Assembly: GCF_916619195.1 (NCBI RefSeq)
Contig: NZ_CAKAKL010000004.1
Coordinates: 319,501 to 383,500 of the forward strand
DNA from: Inquilinus sp. Marseille-Q2685
GTDB lineage: Bacteria > Pseudomonadota > Alphaproteobacteria > DSM-16000 > Inquilinaceae
Direction: 5' to 3'
Length of the DNA stretch: 64,000 nt
The notes beneath the pieces were generated by a model. It was not told where the DNA came from. It saw only the letters and a program-made list of their open reading frames with translations, and made no database searches. Shown piece after piece: positions 39,156-48,676 of this stretch (position 1 is its first letter; every line of letters begins with the position of its first letter). Made by a program: the position numbers and the translations under genes.

Positions 39156-40568
39156 TCAGCCGCACCGTGCCGGGTCGTTCTTCGGATCCCGCCGCGTCTC
39201 GGGCATCGCCGCCGCGAAGGCCAGGGCGGCGGCCGCGGCGACCAGGCCCAGGGTGAGGAAGGCGGCATCGAAGCCGAAGGCGTCGACCACCACCCCGGCG
39301 ACGAGGCCGCTGAGCGAGGCGCCGATCCCCGTCATCGTCGCCACCGCGCCCAGGGCCATGTTGTAGTGGCCGGTGCCGCGCATCAGGTCGGCGACGACCA
39401 GCGGCGTCAGGGCGGCATAGATGCCGAACCCGATCCCGTCCAGGAGTTGCACGGCGATCAGCCAGCCGGTGTCGTGCGAGAGGGTGAACAGCACCGCGCG
39501 CACCGGCAGGCCGGCGAAGCCGATCAGGAAGAGCGGCTTGCGGCCCCAACGGTCCGCCCTGTGGCCGACCAGGATCGAGATCGGCAGCATCACCGCCTGG
39601 GCCGCCACGATGCAGACGGACATCATCGCCGTCGCCCAGGCGGGATGGGCGAAGGCGAGCACCTGCCCGACCAGCGGCAGCAGCGGTGCGTTGGCGAAGT
39701 GGAACAGGAAGGCGCAGATCCCGAACACCACCAGCGGCCGGCGCCGGAGCAGCACCTTCCAGCCGGGCCGGGCGGCCCTCCTCCCCGCCCGATCTCCCGC
39801 GTCGGCGGCGCGGGCGCGATCGTGATCGATCGCCTGCGCCGGGATGGACAGCGTCGCCGCGGCCGCCAGCAGGGCGAAGACCGGCACCAGCAGGAACACC
39901 GCGCGTTGCGAGAACCACCAGCCGACGGCGGCGGCCATCACGGCGATCACCACGTTGCCGGCATGGTCGAACGCCGCGTTGCGCCCCGTCCGCTGCGCCA
40001 GCCGGCGACGCCCGATCAGCCCGAGGGTCAGGGCCGCGACGGCGGGGTAGAAGATGTCGCCGACCACCGCGATCATCACGGACGCGACCAGGATCCACCA
40101 GAAATCCGTGCGCAGGAAGATGGCGACCGCGCCCACCGCCATGACCGCCAGGGCCAGCACGATCGCACCGCGCTTGAAGCGCGTGCGGTCGATCGCCGCG
40201 CCGATCGGGGTCTGCAGCGCCAGGGCCGCGACCCCGCTGACCAGGGTGACGACGCCGAGGGCCGACAGGCTCCAGCCCCGCTCGGTGACGAGATAGACGT
40301 TCAGATACGGGCCGACGGCGCCGCGCGCATCGGCCAGCAGGAAGTTGACGGCGTCCAGCGAGCCCGGATCGAAGCGGGCCCGGGACGCCGCAGGCGCGGC
40401 GGATGTCCGGTCGCCGCTCACCGAGGCGGCGGCATGCCGGCCGGTTGCGGAAGACGCGCCGTCAGCCGGGCGGCCCGAACCGGCCAGGCCATGGGCGGCG
40501 ATGCCCGGTCCCCCGGACTCTGCAGGGCCGGCTGGATCCTGGGATCGGCTGGACGAAGCTGGCGGCAT
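39156..40568 (-). CDS. MFS transporter with long hydrophilic N-terminus
   Basis: A Major Facilitator protein of up to 470 residues. Its first helix does not begin until about residue 70 (LDAVNFLLADARGAVGPYLNVYL). The preceding Ala/Ser/Pro-rich stretch may be untranslated if a later start is used. The segments LVSGVAALALQTPIGAAIDRT and VGHRADRWGRKPLFL show two MFS loop motifs. About 12 helices are evident. Substrate is unknown. The gap to the terminase gene (40569-40796) holds nothing I can identify. Confidence 0.8.
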   Translation of the reverse strand: MPPASSSRSQDPAGPAESGGPGIAAHGLAGSGRPADGASSATGRHAAASVSGDRTSAAPAASRARFDPGSLDAVNFLLADARGAVGPYLNVYLVTERGWSLSALGVVTLVSGVAALALQTPIGAAIDRTRFKRGAIVLALAVMAVGAVAIFLRTDFWWILVASVMIAVVGDIFYPAVAALTLGLIGRRRLAQRTGRNAAFDHAGNVVIAVMAAAVGWWFSQRAVFLLVPVFALLAAAATLSIPAQAIDHDRARAADAGDRAGRRAARPGWKVLLRRRPLVVFGICAFLFHFANAPLLPLVGQVLAFAHPAWATAMMSVCIVAAQAVMLPISILVGHRADRWGRKPLFLIGFAGLPVRAVLFTLSHDTGWLIAVQLLDGIGFGIYAALTPLVVADLMRGTGHYNMALGAVATMTGIGASLSGLVAGVVVDAFGFDAAFLTLGLVAAAAALAFAAAMPETRRDPKNDPARCG

Positions 40569-40796
40569 CGGCGATCAAGGCACAGACAAAGACGTTGAGG
40601 AGTGGCGCGGCCCGCCCGCCGATGCGCAAAGGACGGGGGACCCTGTCACCCGCTCGCATCGTCCGGCGACCGGAGGTCACGGCGATGCCAGCAACATGGA
40701 TCAACGCGAAGACCGGCCCGGGCGATCCCCGGCTTGGCGGAAACCGTCTCTCATGCCCGGCGCGGGAATCGGGCCGCAACCCGTACCTCCACCCGA

Positions 40797-42479
40797 TCAC
40801 CCCAGCCCCGGCCCCACCCAGCGCATGCTGGTGTCGTAGGTGCTGCCGCTCCTCTGCCCTTCGAGCGCGTAGCGCAGGGCGTCGATGGCATGGTTCTCGC
40901 GGTCCTCCAGCTCGGGCAGGATGTCGCCGGTGCGCGGGTCGGTGCGCCAGCTGTACAGCGCCAGCTCGTCGATCAGGTGCCGGCAGCGCGGATGCACCAG
41001 GATGTCGCAGCTCTTCAGGAACTCGACGCCCTCCTTGACCGACCCCGCCCCCTTCGCCGCCGCCCGCAGCTTCGGGAAGCCGTGGTGCTGCATGTAGCTG
41101 ATCGTCTCCGGCCGGGCGCCGTCGGCCACGATCGGCCAGCGCCGCGCCTCCGGCACCGTGTCGAACAGGGCCGGCGTGCGGTCGATCTCGCAGCCGACCC
41201 GGTAGGCCTCGTGGTCGACATGCAGCGTCCGGCCGGCGAGGAAGCAGCGCACCAGCACCGTCGGGTCGCGGGCGAAGCCCCAGTCGGCGCCGAACAGGAA
41301 GCGGGCTCCGGCCGGGGCCTCGAACGCCTCCACCCGCCAGTTCGTGAACACCCGCGCCTCGCTGCTGCGCTGATAGCCGCCCAGCCAGACATGCTGGTAC
41401 TTGTCCGGGTCGCGCTCGCGGTCCCATTCCATCTCGGCCTTCAGCACCTTCGGGAAATGCGGGTTCGCGGTCCAGTTGGCCTCGATCAGTGTGGTGCGCG
41501 GCGGCGCCGGGCCGCCGCGGAACAGCTGGTCGACCGGGTCGTCCGGCCGGGTCGGGTTCCAGGAGAACCACAGCTCGGAGTCCGGCCTGCGGATGGTCGG
41601 GCGCAGCAGCTCCAGGCTCCGCTTCGACAGCGACTGGGCCTCCTCGACCCAGGCGATGTCGTAGCCCTCCAGCGACTTGATCGACTCCGCCGTGTGGGTC
41701 TGCATGCCCTGGAAGATGATCCGCCCCTCCCCCGGGCCCAGGATCCGGTCGGCCTGGACGGTGAAGGCGGCGCCGAGGCCGAGCGCCTGGATCTTGTCCT
41801 CCAGCAGCCGCTTGACCGACTGGTCCAGCGACCGCTGCACCTCGCGGATGCACACCGCCCGGGTCGGCGTCTCGAAGCAGCGCCGCACCAGCAGCTCGGC
41901 GAAGACATGCGACTTGCCCGAGCCGCGCCCGCCATGCAGCGCCTTGTAGCGCGACGGCTTCGCCAGGCGCTTGAACTTGCGCGGCAGCCTGAGCGGCGGC
42001 GGGGCCAGCGGCGCCCGCGGCGCCGGCCTGGCTGCCGCCGCTGGAGCGGCCGCGGCCTCCGCCCCGTCCGGCATCGTCCCGGTCCCATCCGGTGCCGGCC
42101 TCGGCAGGGCCGGCATGGGCAGCGGCATCATCCTGTGTTGGTCCAGCCCCAGGGCGAGGCAGAACTGCCGGAACGCCTCCTCGACCGGCGGCAGGCCGGC
42201 GAAATCATGCTCGTTCAGGCCCTTCCCGAGGCGGTCCGGGACGATCTCGTACAGCTGGCGCACCGCCCGCCCGTCCGGCTCCTGCCCTTCGGCGCGCATC
42301 GCGATCGCCTGCATGAGGCAGCCGGCCAGGATCTCCGGCCTGTGCAGCAGGTTGCAGCCGATGGTCCTGGGGTTCTTCTTCGAGTAGCCGGCCCCCAAGG
42401 CCGCCTGGGACGCGACGCCGTGGCCGAGAAAACACGCGATGAAATGCCAATGGCTCTTCTTCAGCTGCTTCAGCTCCAT
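40797..42479 (-). CDS. Phage terminase: small-subunit domain fused to large subunit
   Basis: A 560-residue protein. Residues 1-60 match the terminase small-subunit helix-turn-helix (FIACFLGHGVASQAALGAGY, then SKKNPRTIGCNLLHRPEI). After a Pro/Ala-rich linker (about 118-165) comes a complete large subunit: Walker A GGRGSGKS at 183-190, Walker B YDIAWVEEA at 273-281, and nuclease aspartates Asp399 (FGADWGF) and Asp533 (NHAIDALRYAL). Large subunits package DNA into capsids by ATP hydrolysis and cut it. GAGGGCGGG precedes the ATG. No portal, capsid or tail gene adjoins it. Confidence 0.88.
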   Translation of the reverse strand: MELKQLKKSHWHFIACFLGHGVASQAALGAGYSKKNPRTIGCNLLHRPEILAGCLMQAIAMRAEGQEPDGRAVRQLYEIVPDRLGKGLNEHDFAGLPPVEEAFRQFCLALGLDQHRMMPLPMPALPRPAPDGTGTMPDGAEAAAAPAAAARPAPRAPLAPPPLRLPRKFKRLAKPSRYKALHGGRGSGKSHVFAELLVRRCFETPTRAVCIREVQRSLDQSVKRLLEDKIQALGLGAAFTVQADRILGPGEGRIIFQGMQTHTAESIKSLEGYDIAWVEEAQSLSKRSLELLRPTIRRPDSELWFSWNPTRPDDPVDQLFRGGPAPPRTTLIEANWTANPHFPKVLKAEMEWDRERDPDKYQHVWLGGYQRSSEARVFTNWRVEAFEAPAGARFLFGADWGFARDPTVLVRCFLAGRTLHVDHEAYRVGCEIDRTPALFDTVPEARRWPIVADGARPETISYMQHHGFPKLRAAAKGAGSVKEGVEFLKSCDILVHPRCRHLIDELALYSWRTDPRTGDILPELEDRENHAIDALRYALEGQRSGSTYDTSMRWVGPGLG

Positions 42480-42493
42480 CCCGCCCTCGCATG

Positions 42494-42524
42494 AAAAAGC
42501 CCGCCGCGGCAGGGCCGGGCGGGC
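42494..42524 (-). terminator. Intrinsic terminator ahead of the terminase gene
   Basis: Read on the minus strand, GCCCGCC (42524-42518) pairs with GGCGGGC (42505-42499) around a 12-base loop and is followed by five T residues (42498-42494). This is a standard rho-independent terminator placed 15 bp before the terminase start, so it acts in the leader rather than at a gene end. Confidence 0.75.
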
Positions 42525-42546
42525 GCAACTCTTCGACTGTGCCTGG

Positions 42547-42576
42547 ATTATGCCGTGCGATGCGGCATCACGTCAA
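42547..42576 (-). promoter_or_regulatory. Near-consensus sigma-70 promoter toward the terminase
   Basis: On the minus strand TTGACG (42576-42571) is followed by 18 bp and CATAAT (42552-42547), each one mismatch from consensus. The spacer contains the inverted repeat ATGCCG / CGGCAT. Transcription would begin near 42540 and meet the terminator about 16 bases later. Confidence 0.65.
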
Positions 42577-42591
42577 GAACAAAAAGAGAAC
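42577..42591 (-). promoter_or_regulatory. LexA (SOS) box, alphaproteobacterial type
   Basis: Minus-strand GTTC-TCTTTTT-GTTC matches the GTTC-N7-GTTC operator bound by alphaproteobacterial LexA. It directly abuts the -35 element of the promoter at 42547-42576, so LexA binding would block RNA polymerase. The AT-rich stretch contrasts with the surrounding sequence. Confidence 0.75.
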
Positions 42592-42615
42592 ACAAAGCGC
42601 GACCTGGCTCCCGAC

Positions 42616-42653
42616 ACCGTCATGGCGAGCTCCGAAGGGGCGTGGCCATCCAG
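42616..42653. repeat. Half copy of palindromic repeat family C
   Basis: ACCGTCATGGCGAGC followed by GGGGCGTGGCCATCCAGG corresponds to one arm of the complete element at 60.2 kb; the second arm is missing. Between it and the dioxygenase start (42841) I see no other feature. Confidence 0.65.
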
Positions 42654-42840
42654 GCTGCACCGACACCGACCGGATTGAGCCCGTCCCCGCAGCGCCGAGG
42701 TCGAACAAGATCAAAGGCGGCCGCCTGCCGGCAAGGAGGGGCAGCTTGCGCGCTGCCCCTCTGGCTTGCCGTTTGGTCCGACAGCGCGATGATGTGCGGG
42801 CGTCGACTGGTCAGCCTTGAAGGCACAGGAGGATTCGACA

Positions 42841-43440
42841 GTGGTCACGCGAGCCGAGCCGCCGACGCGGCGCACCGTTATCACCGCATGTCTCGCCGTG
42901 CCGGCCCTGCAGGCAGCCGGGCTCGGCCTCGCCGCAGCCCAGCCGGCGGAGCTGGCGCCCACGCCGGCCTGCGACGACGGCGATCATCCGACCCCGGCCC
43001 AGACGGAAGGCCCCTTTTTCAAGCCGGATGCGCCGCTGCGGCGGGACCTCGCCGCCGACGCGCCGAACGGGGACAGAATCATCGTCGCCGGCTTCGTGCT
43101 GGACACCCGCTGCCGCCCGCTTCCGGGGGCGATCGTGCAGATCTGGCACGCCGACGACATGGGCCGGTACGACACGGCGGGCTATCGCCTCCGCGGCCAT
43201 CAATTCACCGACCGGAGCGGCCGGTGGTGGTTCACCACGATTGTCCCGGCGCTCTACCCCGGCCGGACCCGGCACTATCACCTGAAGGCCCAGAAGCCGT
43301 CGGGGCCGATCCTCACCACCCAGCTTTATTTTCCCGGCGAGCCGCGGAATGCCCGCGATCGCCTGTTCGATGAGCGCCTGCTGCTGCGCATCGGCGAGAC
43401 GGCCGATGGGCGGTTTGGGCGATTCGACATCGTGCTGTAG
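42841..43440 (+). CDS. Exported intradiol ring-cleavage dioxygenase-like protein
   Basis: A 199-residue protein of the intradiol dioxygenase family. A twin-arginine signal (RRTVITACLAVPALQAAG) precedes the domain. Family features are TEGPFFKPDAPLR, GAIVQIWHADDMGRYD, and the iron-ligand region TRHYHLKAQ with H-x-H; two upstream tyrosines (in YDTAGYR) complete the site. GTG at 42841 is chosen because AGGAGG lies eight bases before it. Exported intradiol-like proteins are widespread; the aromatic substrate is not known. Confidence 0.8.
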   Translation: MVTRAEPPTRRTVITACLAVPALQAAGLGLAAAQPAELAPTPACDDGDHPTPAQTEGPFFKPDAPLRRDLAADAPNGDRIIVAGFVLDTRCRPLPGAIVQIWHADDMGRYDTAGYRLRGHQFTDRSGRWWFTTIVPALYPGRTRHYHLKAQKPSGPILTTQLYFPGEPRNARDRLFDERLLLRIGETADGRFGRFDIVL

Positions 43441-43535
43441 GCCGTGCTCATTCTGTATACGACGGCAATGCGCGAATCGGCCGCTCGCCCAGCCCCAGTT
43501 GCACTGCCATCAACCCTGCAATCGCCGGCGGACGC

Positions 43536-44552
43536 TCAGACCATCCCCGGCGCCGCGAAGATGTGCACCGCGTCGCGCAGCATCGAGGCCGCGGTGGGCG
43601 TGGGCTCGCGCTCCCACAGCTTGTGATAGGTGATGCCGTAGATGTCGGTGTGCATCTCGACCGCCATCTCCCAGCCGCGGCACTGGGCCAGGAAGTCGGC
43701 GGCGGGCAGGGCGGCCGGCGCCACGGCGTAGCGCCCGGCCTCGGCGCTCGCGACCAGCCGGATGACGTTGCCGCGCGCCGCCTCGGCCGCGATCCGCTCC
43801 GCCGTCACGCCGGCGATGCCCGTCACCTCGATATCGGCGAGCGAGATGCCGGCGCCGAGCAGGCTGTTGGCGATGATCAGCAGCTTGTTGGCGGTGTCCC
43901 AGCCGTCGACGTCGAGCGACGGGTCGGCCTCGGCGATGCCGCGGCGCTGGGCCTCGGCCAGCGCGTCGCCATAGGACACGCCGGTGGCCATCTGGTCGAG
44001 GATGAAGTTGGTGGTGGCGTTGAACACGCCGCGCAGCCGCAGGATCTCGCCCGCGATCATGTCGCGCCGCCTGATGTTGAGCACGGGCAGCCCGCCGCAG
44101 ACCGTGGCGCTGTATTTCAGCCGCGCCCCGCTGCGCGCGGCGGTCTCGTGCAGCTCGCGAAAGGCCAGCACCACCGGGCCCTTGTTGGCCAGCACGACGG
44201 AGATGCCCCGCCCCAGCGCCGCCCGTGCCAGCGCCAGCCCCGGCCCACCGGTGCGCAGGTCGACCGGCGACGCCTCGAACACCAGGTCGATTCCGTCCAG
44301 CAGGCTCTCCACCGGAACGGCGCCGCGAGAGCCGGACAGGTCCGCAGTCGAGCCCCCGGCCGCCTTGTGGGCGACGAGCTTGGCGGGATCGAAGCCGTCG
44401 GGATCCACCGCGACGCCCCGGCTGTCGGCGACCAGGACGATGCGGAAGCCGATGCCGTGGTCGCGCCGCAGCACCTCCGCCTTGTCGGCCAGGATCGCCA
44501 GCAGGTTCCGGTTGACGCTGCCGAGCCCGATCAGGGCGGCGTTGATCAGCAT
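43536..44552 (-). CDS. Homoserine dehydrogenase-like oxidoreductase without ACT domain
   Basis: A 338-residue protein resembling the catalytic part of homoserine dehydrogenase. The NAD(P) loop is ALIGLGSVNRNLL at 6-18, with SVVLANKGPVVLAF and the GVFNATTNFILDQM and DVDGWDTANKLLI segments of the family. The feedback ACT domain is absent. The start at 44552 is chosen from the Rossmann strand and the GAGGACC site. It may be a paralogue acting on a related substrate rather than the threonine-pathway enzyme. Confidence 0.83.
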   Translation of the reverse strand: MLINAALIGLGSVNRNLLAILADKAEVLRRDHGIGFRIVLVADSRGVAVDPDGFDPAKLVAHKAAGGSTADLSGSRGAVPVESLLDGIDLVFEASPVDLRTGGPGLALARAALGRGISVVLANKGPVVLAFRELHETAARSGARLKYSATVCGGLPVLNIRRRDMIAGEILRLRGVFNATTNFILDQMATGVSYGDALAEAQRRGIAEADPSLDVDGWDTANKLLIIANSLLGAGISLADIEVTGIAGVTAERIAAEAARGNVIRLVASAEAGRYAVAPAALPAADFLAQCRGWEMAVEMHTDIYGITYHKLWEREPTPTAASMLRDAVHIFAAPGMV

Positions 44553-44603
44553 GGGTGGTCCTCGGTTCGGAGCAGAATCGCCCCTGCAGTTTCCAGGTCC
44601 CGG

Positions 44604-44658
44604 CCCGTCATGGCGAGCCCAGCCCCTTATCCCCATTGGGAGGTGTGGCCATCCAGGG
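44604..44658. repeat. Diverged half copy of repeat family C
   Basis: CCCGTCATGGCGAGCCC leads, through a 20-bp altered centre, to GGTGTGGCCATCCAGGG. It matches one arm of the 60.2-kb element with an internal difference. It lies upstream of the homoserine dehydrogenase-like gene. Confidence 0.55.
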
Positions 44659-44741
44659 CTGTCGCCGCGGCTGCGATCATGATATAGGGGCCGGATAGTC
44701 ATCGATGTCCACTACACGCCGGACAGGCGAAATCATGAGAC

Positions 44742-45437
44742 ATGAAACATGACCCATCTGCATTCCCAACGGATGAACTCGTAAAGCAGATCCAGATTCT
44801 CGGAAAGGACGACGCCGACTTCGTATACGAGTCGGAGCAACTTCTTTTCAAGAGATGGCGGCGCGGAAAAGATCTGGGACCCCTGATCGGCCTGTTGAGT
44901 TCCGAAAATACTTACGATCGGCTCCTCGGAGCATACTATCTGGGTGAACTCGGCGAGAGAGTCGAAGATCTGAAAGCTCCGGTGAGGCGGCTTTTGGATG
45001 ACCCAATTTCCGACTGCCGCCGCGCCTTCGTCCTATACATGTCAAACTACTATGACGATGACATTGGGAAGGCGTTTGCAAAATGTCTATTGGATCTGGA
45101 TCTCCACGTAAGGCTTACCGTGATAAGATGGGGGATCCGGACATCGGCCGAGCAGTTCGAACATTTTTCCCGATTGGTTGAGACGGGAGCCGGCAGACGG
45201 GAATCGACATTCTCCAATCCGCTCGACCGCGATTATTGGAATGAATCCGAACTGAAGCGCGGAATCCGTGGGCTGAACATCATTCGCCGCATCCGGGCGG
45301 GAGAGGAAATCCCACGGATCCGGGAAGAATTCCCCGAGGAGGATGGCTTCGTCTTCGATAGCATCGATTTTTTGAGGACATTCGGACAGCGCCAGGCGAA
45401 GTGGAGAGAGATGAAAAGGCGCCGTGCGGATTCCTAG
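44742..45437 (+). CDS. Hypothetical protein, HEAT-like helical repeats, lower GC
   Basis: A 231-residue protein that I do not recognise by family. The middle (about 45-130) is a series of short helical hairpins (LIGLLSSENTYDRLLGAYYL and later repeats) resembling HEAT or ARM repeats. The C-terminal third is charged. One sampled 60-base line (44881-44940) has 31 G+C, about 52%, far below the neighbouring core genes. It sits just before the ParS/ParT pair and is probably horizontally acquired. No catalytic motif is seen. Confidence 0.6.
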   Translation: MKHDPSAFPTDELVKQIQILGKDDADFVYESEQLLFKRWRRGKDLGPLIGLLSSENTYDRLLGAYYLGELGERVEDLKAPVRRLLDDPISDCRRAFVLYMSNYYDDDIGKAFAKCLLDLDLHVRLTVIRWGIRTSAEQFEHFSRLVETGAGRRESTFSNPLDRDYWNESELKRGIRGLNIIRRIRAGEEIPRIREEFPEEDGFVFDSIDFLRTFGQRQAKWREMKRRRADS

Positions 45438-46831: not shown

Positions 46832-48676
46832 TTATGTGATCCCCAAAAGCTTGTCTAAACTCCTAGAAGCAGACGCTCGCCGTTTGTTTATTTCAACCAG
46901 GAGGCCCTCCAGTTTTTTTACTATATTGCTAATCCACAGAGAGAATCCACATTCGGCAACCCATTCTGGTTTGCCATAGAATGATTCAGGATTCAAAGTA
47001 ATCCCATTCTCTTCATCAAAGCAGTTTATCCTAATTTGCTTGTATTTTTTGCCTTGCGATAATTCCGGGACCTCCTCCTTTATCTTTTGTATTACCTTCT
47101 TGTCCGCCTCGGACCAATTTAAGTATTCTATTGATCCTCTTCTGGGGAAATACATATCAGACAGAAGCATAAGGAACGCATGATCCGGCCCACCGGCTCT
47201 TATCATAAAACCTTCATATTTGTCTTTCAAGCGATACATGAAAGCATACTTGAAAAATCTAAGGCATTTTTCTTTATCCTCTAAAGCGCCAAAATTCCTA
47301 AGCCTGATTATCAAGTTTTCCAGATTTGGTATTATAAATGTCCGCTCGACTTTGTCTTTATTCATCTCAAAAAGCATTCTTACCGTATTATCAGACAGTC
47401 TATTATAGACATGATTCAGTACGGCTCCACAGTGGGTATCACTTAAATAGTCAGAAAGACATACTGCAGTAAAATATTCTTGAAAGCTGCGATGAGTAAA
47501 CTGTATATCTAGCCCATTTTTTTGCATAACGCATATAGATTCTATTAAATCCTTGCGATACTCATCAGTTCTTAGCTTTATAGAGGTAGCCTTTGACGCT
47601 TTGGCTATGTATTCGGCCAACTCACTTTCACTAAATTCGAACATTTCAGCATGATACGTGAAAAGGCAAAAGTATGCAAAGCACTTTCTGAATAAATCTA
47701 AAGTTAGATCTGTAAACCTCTGTCTCTGAAAACCCTCTTTTGCTGCGTCGTGCTTAAGAAATAAGGTTTCAAATGCCTGCCCGTAGAATAGATGTATTTT
47801 ATCTGGAATCTCTGCGTACTGATCAAACGTCAATAGCATAATTGTAGTTAAAAGAGGGTTCGACAGAAAACTTTGATGCTTATCATACAATTCTCGTTTT
47901 ACCTTATTATAGAATTTTTTCTTTATCACAGGTTCATAGTGTATTTTACTGATAAGCGCAAGAGTCTGTGATTTTGTAAAAGGAAGGATCGTATAAACGG
48001 AAAATTGCTGCCACGCTTCAAATCTATCCTCAGGTCGGCCGGACACCACTATTATTATATCTTTATACTGAGCAGAAATATCCAATATCTGTCTTTCTAT
48101 ACTAGACCTCTTATCTATATTGATTTCATCAAATCCATCTAATATAAAAATAAATGTTCCTCTTCTCATTTCCTTAATAAATCGATCTTCTGTTATCTTT
48201 GACCCACTACCCGTCGTAGATTTAAAAACATAGGAAAGCAGGTTTTCAGAATGAAGATCATTCATACGGCGCAATTCTATATAAATTGGTATTCTTCCTT
48301 TAGGGTCTGTGAACAAACTCAACCATAAATACTTCATAAAAACGGTTTTCCCACCACCCCCCGTTCCCGTTATGATAGTTCTTGATCTAGATTCAATAGA
48401 ACCTATAAATGCCAAGTCTCCTATTTCTACCTTGTGACATTTAAATTTCAGGTTTGTGTATATTGATAGTATGTTGTTAGGTTTTTCACGACTGATTATG
48501 GTCTTTATCTGTTGGCATCGGTCGAAATTTTCGCTTAGATGAGACTCAAAATTTGCCGTTAGACTCGCAATAGAGCTCGATATAGTTTCTCCGATCCTTG
48601 TAGAAATACCTTCGGTTAGCCGCTGCAGTGATGCCTGAAACCCGCCAACTAGTGCTGCCTCTAAAATGCTAGTCAT
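46832..48676 (-). CDS. NACHT-domain NTPase (STAND family), probable anti-phage protein
   Basis: A 614-residue protein. After a helical N-terminal region (1-95) comes a NACHT module: Walker A GTGGGGKT at 104-111, Walker B FIFILDGFDE at 175-184, the VVSGRPED sensor at 210-217, and the winged-helix end marked FTHRSFQEYFTAVCL. The C-terminal 200 residues are an unrecognised sensor-like region. Standalone bacterial NACHT proteins are known to defend against phage. A 60-base sample (47521-47580) has 19 G+C (32%), so the gene is foreign. No nuclease domain is fused. Confidence 0.88.
   Translation of the reverse strand: MTSILEAALVGGFQASLQRLTEGISTRIGETISSSIASLTANFESHLSENFDRCQQIKTIISREKPNNILSIYTNLKFKCHKVEIGDLAFIGSIESRSRTIITGTGGGGKTVFMKYLWLSLFTDPKGRIPIYIELRRMNDLHSENLLSYVFKSTTGSGSKITEDRFIKEMRRGTFIFILDGFDEINIDKRSSIERQILDISAQYKDIIIVVSGRPEDRFEAWQQFSVYTILPFTKSQTLALISKIHYEPVIKKKFYNKVKRELYDKHQSFLSNPLLTTIMLLTFDQYAEIPDKIHLFYGQAFETLFLKHDAAKEGFQRQRFTDLTLDLFRKCFAYFCLFTYHAEMFEFSESELAEYIAKASKATSIKLRTDEYRKDLIESICVMQKNGLDIQFTHRSFQEYFTAVCLSDYLSDTHCGAVLNHVYNRLSDNTVRMLFEMNKDKVERTFIIPNLENLIIRLRNFGALEDKEKCLRFFKYAFMYRLKDKYEGFMIRAGGPDHAFLMLLSDMYFPRRGSIEYLNWSEADKKVIQKIKEEVPELSQGKKYKQIRINCFDEENGITLNPESFYGKPEWVAECGFSLWISNIVKKLEGLLVEINKRRASASRSLDKLLGIT

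Follow-up and report, generated by a model that had tools for sequence, protein, structure and literature searches.

A ~100-bp module, in which a LexA-type operator, a promoter with a dyad in its spacer and a putative intrinsic terminator follow one another, precedes a solitary terminase gene in the window analysed here (the whole stretch of 64,000 nucleotides, from the 7.3-Mb genome G000 of the genus that contains Inquilinus limosus) and is found in 28 copies in six Inquilinus genomes. That the module is a real regulatory unit is very probable. We propose that it works as a switch with two keys: release of LexA and then antitermination, most likely through a DUF6456 protein at the dyad, would lead to expression of the terminase. 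The probability of this whole chain is about 0.5, and antitermination in some form is somewhat better supported. At the level of sequence, what can be read is the module as such, with its box, predicted promoter, dyad and hairpin, its retained terminase and its conservation in many copies.

The module in the window

The initial annotation had described a LexA-controlled promoter followed at once by a terminator in the terminase leader. Its layout of box, TTGACG, 18 bp, CATAAT, hairpin with T5 and terminase was matched base for base (Table 1), and the RNA predicted to run from 42540 to near 42494 would be ~46 nt long, in agreement with the length given there. The hairpin has 11 pairs and one bulge and begins ~16 nt past the expected start, and the fold of the 53-nt leader is calculated at -25.6 kcal/mol. 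Comparison of the leader with known RNA families gave no Rfam match. The dyad was also considered as an RNA structure; it is positioned upstream of the expected start and is taken as a symmetry of the DNA. Assignment of the box to the divergent dioxygenase gene (42817+) was discarded, as the module persists at loci whose neighbours differ.

Table 1 Parts of the module and the adjoining terminase gene in the window
Feature	Position	Strand	Remarks
LexA-type box GTTCTCTTTTTGTTC (GTTC-N7-GTTC)	42591-42577	(-)	All eight GTTC bases invariant (n=28); N7 variable except TTT
-35 hexamer TTGACG, directly after the box	42576-42571	(-)	TTGAC invariant (n=28)
Promoter spacer, 18 bp, between TTGACG and CATAAT		(-)	
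Spacer dyad GATGC-C-GCATC, candidate antiterminator loading site	42559..42569	(-)	Identity and symmetry across copies
-10 hexamer CATAAT	42552-42547	(-)	
Predicted start of transcription (~42540), with conserved first bases	42525..42540	(-)	Start inferred from the -10
Putative intrinsic terminator	42494..42524	(-)	Hairpin 42524-42499, T5 42498-42494; consensus fold in 28 copies
Terminase RBS GAGGG	42484..42488	(-)	Read directly from the sequence
Terminase start codon ATG	42479	(-)	
Solitary terminase, 560 aa	40797..42479	(-)	Small-terminase-like N part fused to a large subunit with Terminase_3 ATPase and Terminase_3C nuclease domains

Control by LexA, as proposed in that annotation, fits the sequence: the box has the form of the published alpha-proteobacterial LexA motif, GTTC-N7-GTTC (PMC3323433), and abuts the promoter -35, as in the alpha-proteobacterial LexA regulon. 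The lexA and recA genes of the same genome have upstream boxes, GTTTTTGTTTTGTTC and GTACACGTTTTGTTC, each one mismatch from the motif. A lone GTTC-N7-GTTC is expected by chance about once per 64 kb at the base composition of the window, and the single box found there therefore proves nothing by itself. The module is the sole promoter-like site within positions 40000-45000, where 0.3 were expected from shuffles.

Copies in Inquilinus genomes

The whole genome G000 contains 147 GTTC-N7-GTTC boxes, versus 37 for the reversed control. In G000 the box lies directly before the start codon of genes for small proteins of the MDKAQTD...EIQMSIARATQQEALQAPQPGVDY and MVDAAITA... types (for example L179:3762(-), L125:1828(-) and L034:1501(+)), which gave no Pfam match; the GTTCATGATATGTTC class of these recurs many times and accounts for much of the excess. 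The combination of box and TTGAC was found at 28 sites across the six Inquilinus genomes, six of these being in the genome of the window, and is absent from the reversed control and from seven other genomes of the family. A model built from the sequence of the ~100-bp module recovered the identical 28 copies in the six genomes, with E-values of 3.6e-25 or better, while eleven non-Inquilinus genomes of the same family gave no match to it. Homologous terminases in other bacteria and in viral contigs had no module in their vicinity, and the leader had no match among plasmids. The close comparison set consists of five other Inquilinus genomes; the genomes compared are mostly drafts, and contig ends cut several module copies. 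The record labelled 'Mycobacterium sp. KBS0706' (NZ_VCCH02000001 and related) groups with the genus by kinship and by terminase content, and is probably mislabelled.

A terminase frame or remnant lies directly 3' of the module in 24 of the 28 copies, one of these frames being internally deleted and some being split or ended by contig ends; the remaining four modules precede a portal gene, a tail-spike-like gene, a portal fragment and no clear gene. The layout noted in the window is hence present before related Inquilinus terminases, and the alternative raised in the initial annotation, a box belonging to a gene since deleted, is rejected, because box and terminase occur together in these 24 copies. 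In BLASTN comparisons between copies, homology begins at most ~10 bp from the box in nearly all pairs and stops at the terminase stop codon, and the flanks are unrelated. The terminase of the window is one of many solitary copies, and the neighbours of the nine that were checked include genes for a histidine kinase, a molybdopterin enzyme, a periplasmic binding protein, an ion channel, an MFS transporter and a dioxygenase. For the window copy, the insertion boundaries are unreadable by comparison with an empty site, as the orthologous locus of G003 is rearranged with displaced terminase pieces and G005 is without synteny.

Conservation is limited to the functional elements of the module. Mean pairwise identity across copies is 1.00 for the eight GTTC bases and 0.74 for the N7 between them, 0.92 for the -35, 0.82 for the -10 and 0.81 for the first ~20 bases past the -10; the 11-bp spacer dyad reaches 0.84 and the remaining spacer 0.63, and the value falls to 0.30 in the 50 nt upstream of the box. 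Box, -35, dyad, -10 and hairpin follow one another in this order in all 28 copies. Elsewhere the dyad reads GACGC-C-GCGTC or GACGG-C-CCGTC, with its symmetry retained. Across 23 copies, 96.7% of cells in the dyad are paired and compensatory changes lie above most shuffles, and the covariation score of the wider dyad in all 28 copies was equalled in 126 of 500 shuffles. This spacer covariation is modest and can be produced by the relatedness of the copies; the dyad symmetry is supported, though the covariation falls short of proof. The hairpin is predicted in 28 of 28 copies. The sequence in solitary copies is GGCGGGCTTTTT or closely similar to it, and most copies within the phage cluster carry GGCGGGCGCTTTCG, which has a longer stem and a poorer U-tract. 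In the type B copies, which belong to this cluster, the U-tract is GCUUUCG, and because it is poorer the terminator may be weak there, where it matters most.

Terminases and the phage-like cluster

The N part of the terminase contains a weak small-terminase match at residues 12-50 (Terminase_2, E 5.6e-5, under the family cut-off), and Terminase_3 and Terminase_3C correspond to residues 177-367 and 445-540. Homologues from phages and other bacteria align from about residue 124, mostly from 150-176, so the matched frames there would be without the small-subunit-like part. Frames of 510 aa or more are present in at least 14 copies. The N part (42059-42479 in the window, and its homologues) diverges much faster than the remaining protein: dN/dS (NG86) is ~0.9-2.2 in the N part versus ~0.1-0.66 in the C part, where the absolute N-part values are unreliable owing to strong GC bias and loose alignment and the contrast between the two parts is robust. 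The large-subunit (C) part is under purifying selection. Within a genome the C parts can be nearly identical (dS 0.08 for L040/L042 and 0.10 for L048/L049), which suggests gene conversion. The intact reading frames and the selection on the large-subunit part also support passage of the terminator at times; judging from this constraint, it must be passed at least sometimes, because the protein could not show such constraint if the terminator always stopped transcription. An improbable extension would make the scattered terminases interchangeable packaging-specificity cassettes for one shared phage- or GTA-like particle, with the same switch, a homogenised motor and nuclease, and a diversifying N-terminal DNA-recognition part; if it were true, a damaged cell would package with several start-site specificities simultaneously.

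Several terminases are split near codon ~243-250 by elements of 16-45 kb with TATAG ends (G005:C403:9294/25505, G005:C396:13253/58730, G002:C14 and C70, G003:C32:44946 and L244:8001), with a 5-bp duplication, GCATC, where it is readable. The G003 element contains a Mu-type transposase and an S24 repressor; a Mu-type DNA-binding domain adjoins the junction in G005, and in G002 the junction has a Mom gene next to it. Targeting of the terminase by a Mu-like phage family would, if true, be unusual. Genes of the CAP12/Pycsar-TIR and nSTAND3 types lie near or inside terminase insertions (L041:16486-17400, L286:14476-16755 and L287:24-3452), and these loci are possible defence islands. In the window, positions 46832-48676 (-) hold a gene for a 614-aa NACHT-domain protein whose GC3 is 0.36, versus 0.6-0.95 in the surrounding genes; it is a recent acquisition and possibly has a role in defence.

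A phage structural cluster occupies an orthologous chromosomal locus in three genomes (G000:C2, ~905-946 kb; G001:C3, ~65-112 kb; G005:C403) and is decayed in a fourth (G003:C7). It encodes terminase, portal, head-maturation protease, major head protein, connectors, tape measure, tail proteins and an endolysin-like protein. In I. limosus DSM 16000 it is reduced to the terminase, a tail-spike-like gene and a portal fragment. A scan of a subset of the genes at the cluster locus gave no integrase match. The Inquilinus cluster is a candidate GTA-like element. Modules recur within it, flanking inserted genes (tail-spike-like, GNAT, Tim44; L046:8869 and 6385, L041:9745, L286:7217 and 8530), as if a fresh copy of the switch came after each inserted gene.

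On the upstream side of the cluster, all four genomes have a divergent gene, two small genes (one of them missing from the G000 ORF calls) and one DUF6456 gene. The divergent gene next to DUF6456 encodes, in its G000 copy, an HTH domain and an S24 peptidase. DUF6456 is a single gene per genome in these four, on the same strand as the cluster module and 0.25-21 kb upstream of it; the distance is 15-21 kb in two of the four, and in G003 the gene lies 0.6 kb before the late promoter, a position that matches that of Q in lambda. Among 14 control genomes the family was matched in Caulobacter only; DUF6456 is likewise present in a second genus of the bacterial family, one without the module, and gave no match in phage records. 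In its structure model the Inquilinus protein is weakly similar to sigma region 4, with Foldseek E-values above 0.1, and the same resemblance has been reported for GafZ. GafA is itself annotated as DUF6456 (PMC9638019, PMC9765227).

The proposed switch, its rivals and its relatives

The first key, strongly suggested by the sequence, would be LexA, which would sit on the box abutting the -35 and hold the promoter shut until DNA damage. The second would be the strong intrinsic terminator, which the polymerase would hit after ~46 nt, giving a short RNA only, unless an antiterminator loaded at the -35/-10 dyad carried it past and into the terminase gene. The likeliest antiterminator would be the DUF6456 protein, a relative of GafA and GafZ encoded beside the S24-type repressor gene. 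The module would drive the terminase and portal of the cluster itself, and as the solitary terminases, the window copy included, have the same module, all would fire together.

The strongest rival, which we consider rather unlikely, is passive attenuation or insulation, in which a LexA promoter needs no antiterminator and a fixed minority of polymerases reads through; the terminator would cap the dose of a dangerous nuclease and shield it from neighbouring transcription. A hairpin with T5 would indeed halt most, not all, transcripts, solitary copies lie amid ordinary chromosomal genes, some immediately 3' of a co-oriented gene, and the lack of matches to the lambdoid Q families PF06530 and PF03589 also speaks for it; however, it does not account for the conservation of the spacer dyad and of the first ~20 transcribed bases. 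It is quite improbable that the product is the RNA itself, a damage-induced ~46-nt species acting on other transcripts with the terminase rarely read. The conserved single-stranded 5' part of ~16 nt followed by a hairpin in all copies has the shape of a minimal sRNA, and the leader is without an Rfam family, but a free-standing RNA gene needs neither a terminase behind it in 24 of 28 copies nor intact and constrained frames. Equally doubtful is the view that the modules and solitary terminases are functionless remains of decayed prophages, to which the decay of the I. limosus DSM 16000 cluster and the copies split by inserted elements might point; at least 14 full-length frames, a C-part dN/dS well below 1 and regulatory bases that are invariant despite unrelated flanks argue against it. 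Phage cos and pac sites often adjoin the small-terminase gene and the module moves together with its terminase, so that it might be mainly a packaging site with secondary promoter-like features, but this is the least probable reading of all: box, hexamers, hairpin and U-tract are exactly promoter and terminator elements, divergence is greatest in the N part, which would have to recognise the site, whereas the leader is among the most conserved stretches, and modules within the cluster stand before portal and tail-spike genes, where additional cuts would be harmful.

As regards antitermination, Caulobacter GafZ, the counterpart of the C-terminal part of GafA, binds a palindrome in the GTA promoter, between its -10 and -35, and accompanies RNA polymerase, allowing it to pass terminators (PMC11150451). 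The first gene of the Caulobacter crescentus GTA cluster is the terminase (PMC9632790), and RogA, a LexA-like S24 protein, represses gafYZ (PMC11150451, PMC9632790). Both systems belong to alpha-proteobacteria and share a terminase as first gene, a palindrome between -35 and -10, a terminator to pass, a gene of the GafA/GafZ family and a LexA/CI-like S24 repressor gene, which in Inquilinus is divergent beside DUF6456, like RogA. They differ in that the terminator follows the first gene in Caulobacter and precedes it in Inquilinus, and in that Caulobacter has a degenerate -35 dependent on GafY and IHF, whereas that of Inquilinus is near consensus. In addition, the LexA box is directly on the Inquilinus late promoter, while the S24-type RogA acts on gafYZ, and the Inquilinus module, unlike its Caulobacter counterpart, is present in multiple copies per genome and has a different dyad sequence. 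GafZ is a closer model than lambdoid Q.

Antitermination control of late phage genes is textbook knowledge, and the phage 21 (Q21) leader has the layout of a late promoter with an early terminator. We know of no LexA box on a lambdoid late promoter. The comparison with lambdoid late control made in the initial annotation holds for the layout but not for the protein: PF06530 and PF03589, the lambdoid Q families, gave no match in the six Inquilinus genomes. Lambda Q late promoters have a site embedded in the promoter and an early terminator ahead of the late genes (PMC6606751), and a late promoter, a promoter-embedded site and an early terminator are shared with lambda Q and Q21. The AlpA promoters of Pseudomonas aeruginosa, alpBCDE and PA0807, are triggered by DNA damage and have intrinsic terminators that begin 26 or 54 nt past the transcription start (PMC7969949). 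The trigger (predicted for Inquilinus), the -35/-10 element and the early intrinsic terminator are thus common to both, but the AlpA protein is unrelated and its targets are few, and are lysis genes instead of terminase. Phage genes directly under host LexA are known from the GIL01 and CTX phages (PMC9437464), where the LexA sites serve lytic-switch or early genes, in contrast to packaging genes with a leader terminator in Inquilinus.

Here a direct LexA box stands on a probable antitermination-type promoter, and the two have been copied, terminator included, to several solitary terminases in each genome. With one promoter module, 28 natural variants and a single candidate antiterminator per genome, Inquilinus may offer a simple test bed. 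If the proposed switch is true, the SOS response would be tied straight to packaging genes, and many loci would act as one switch.
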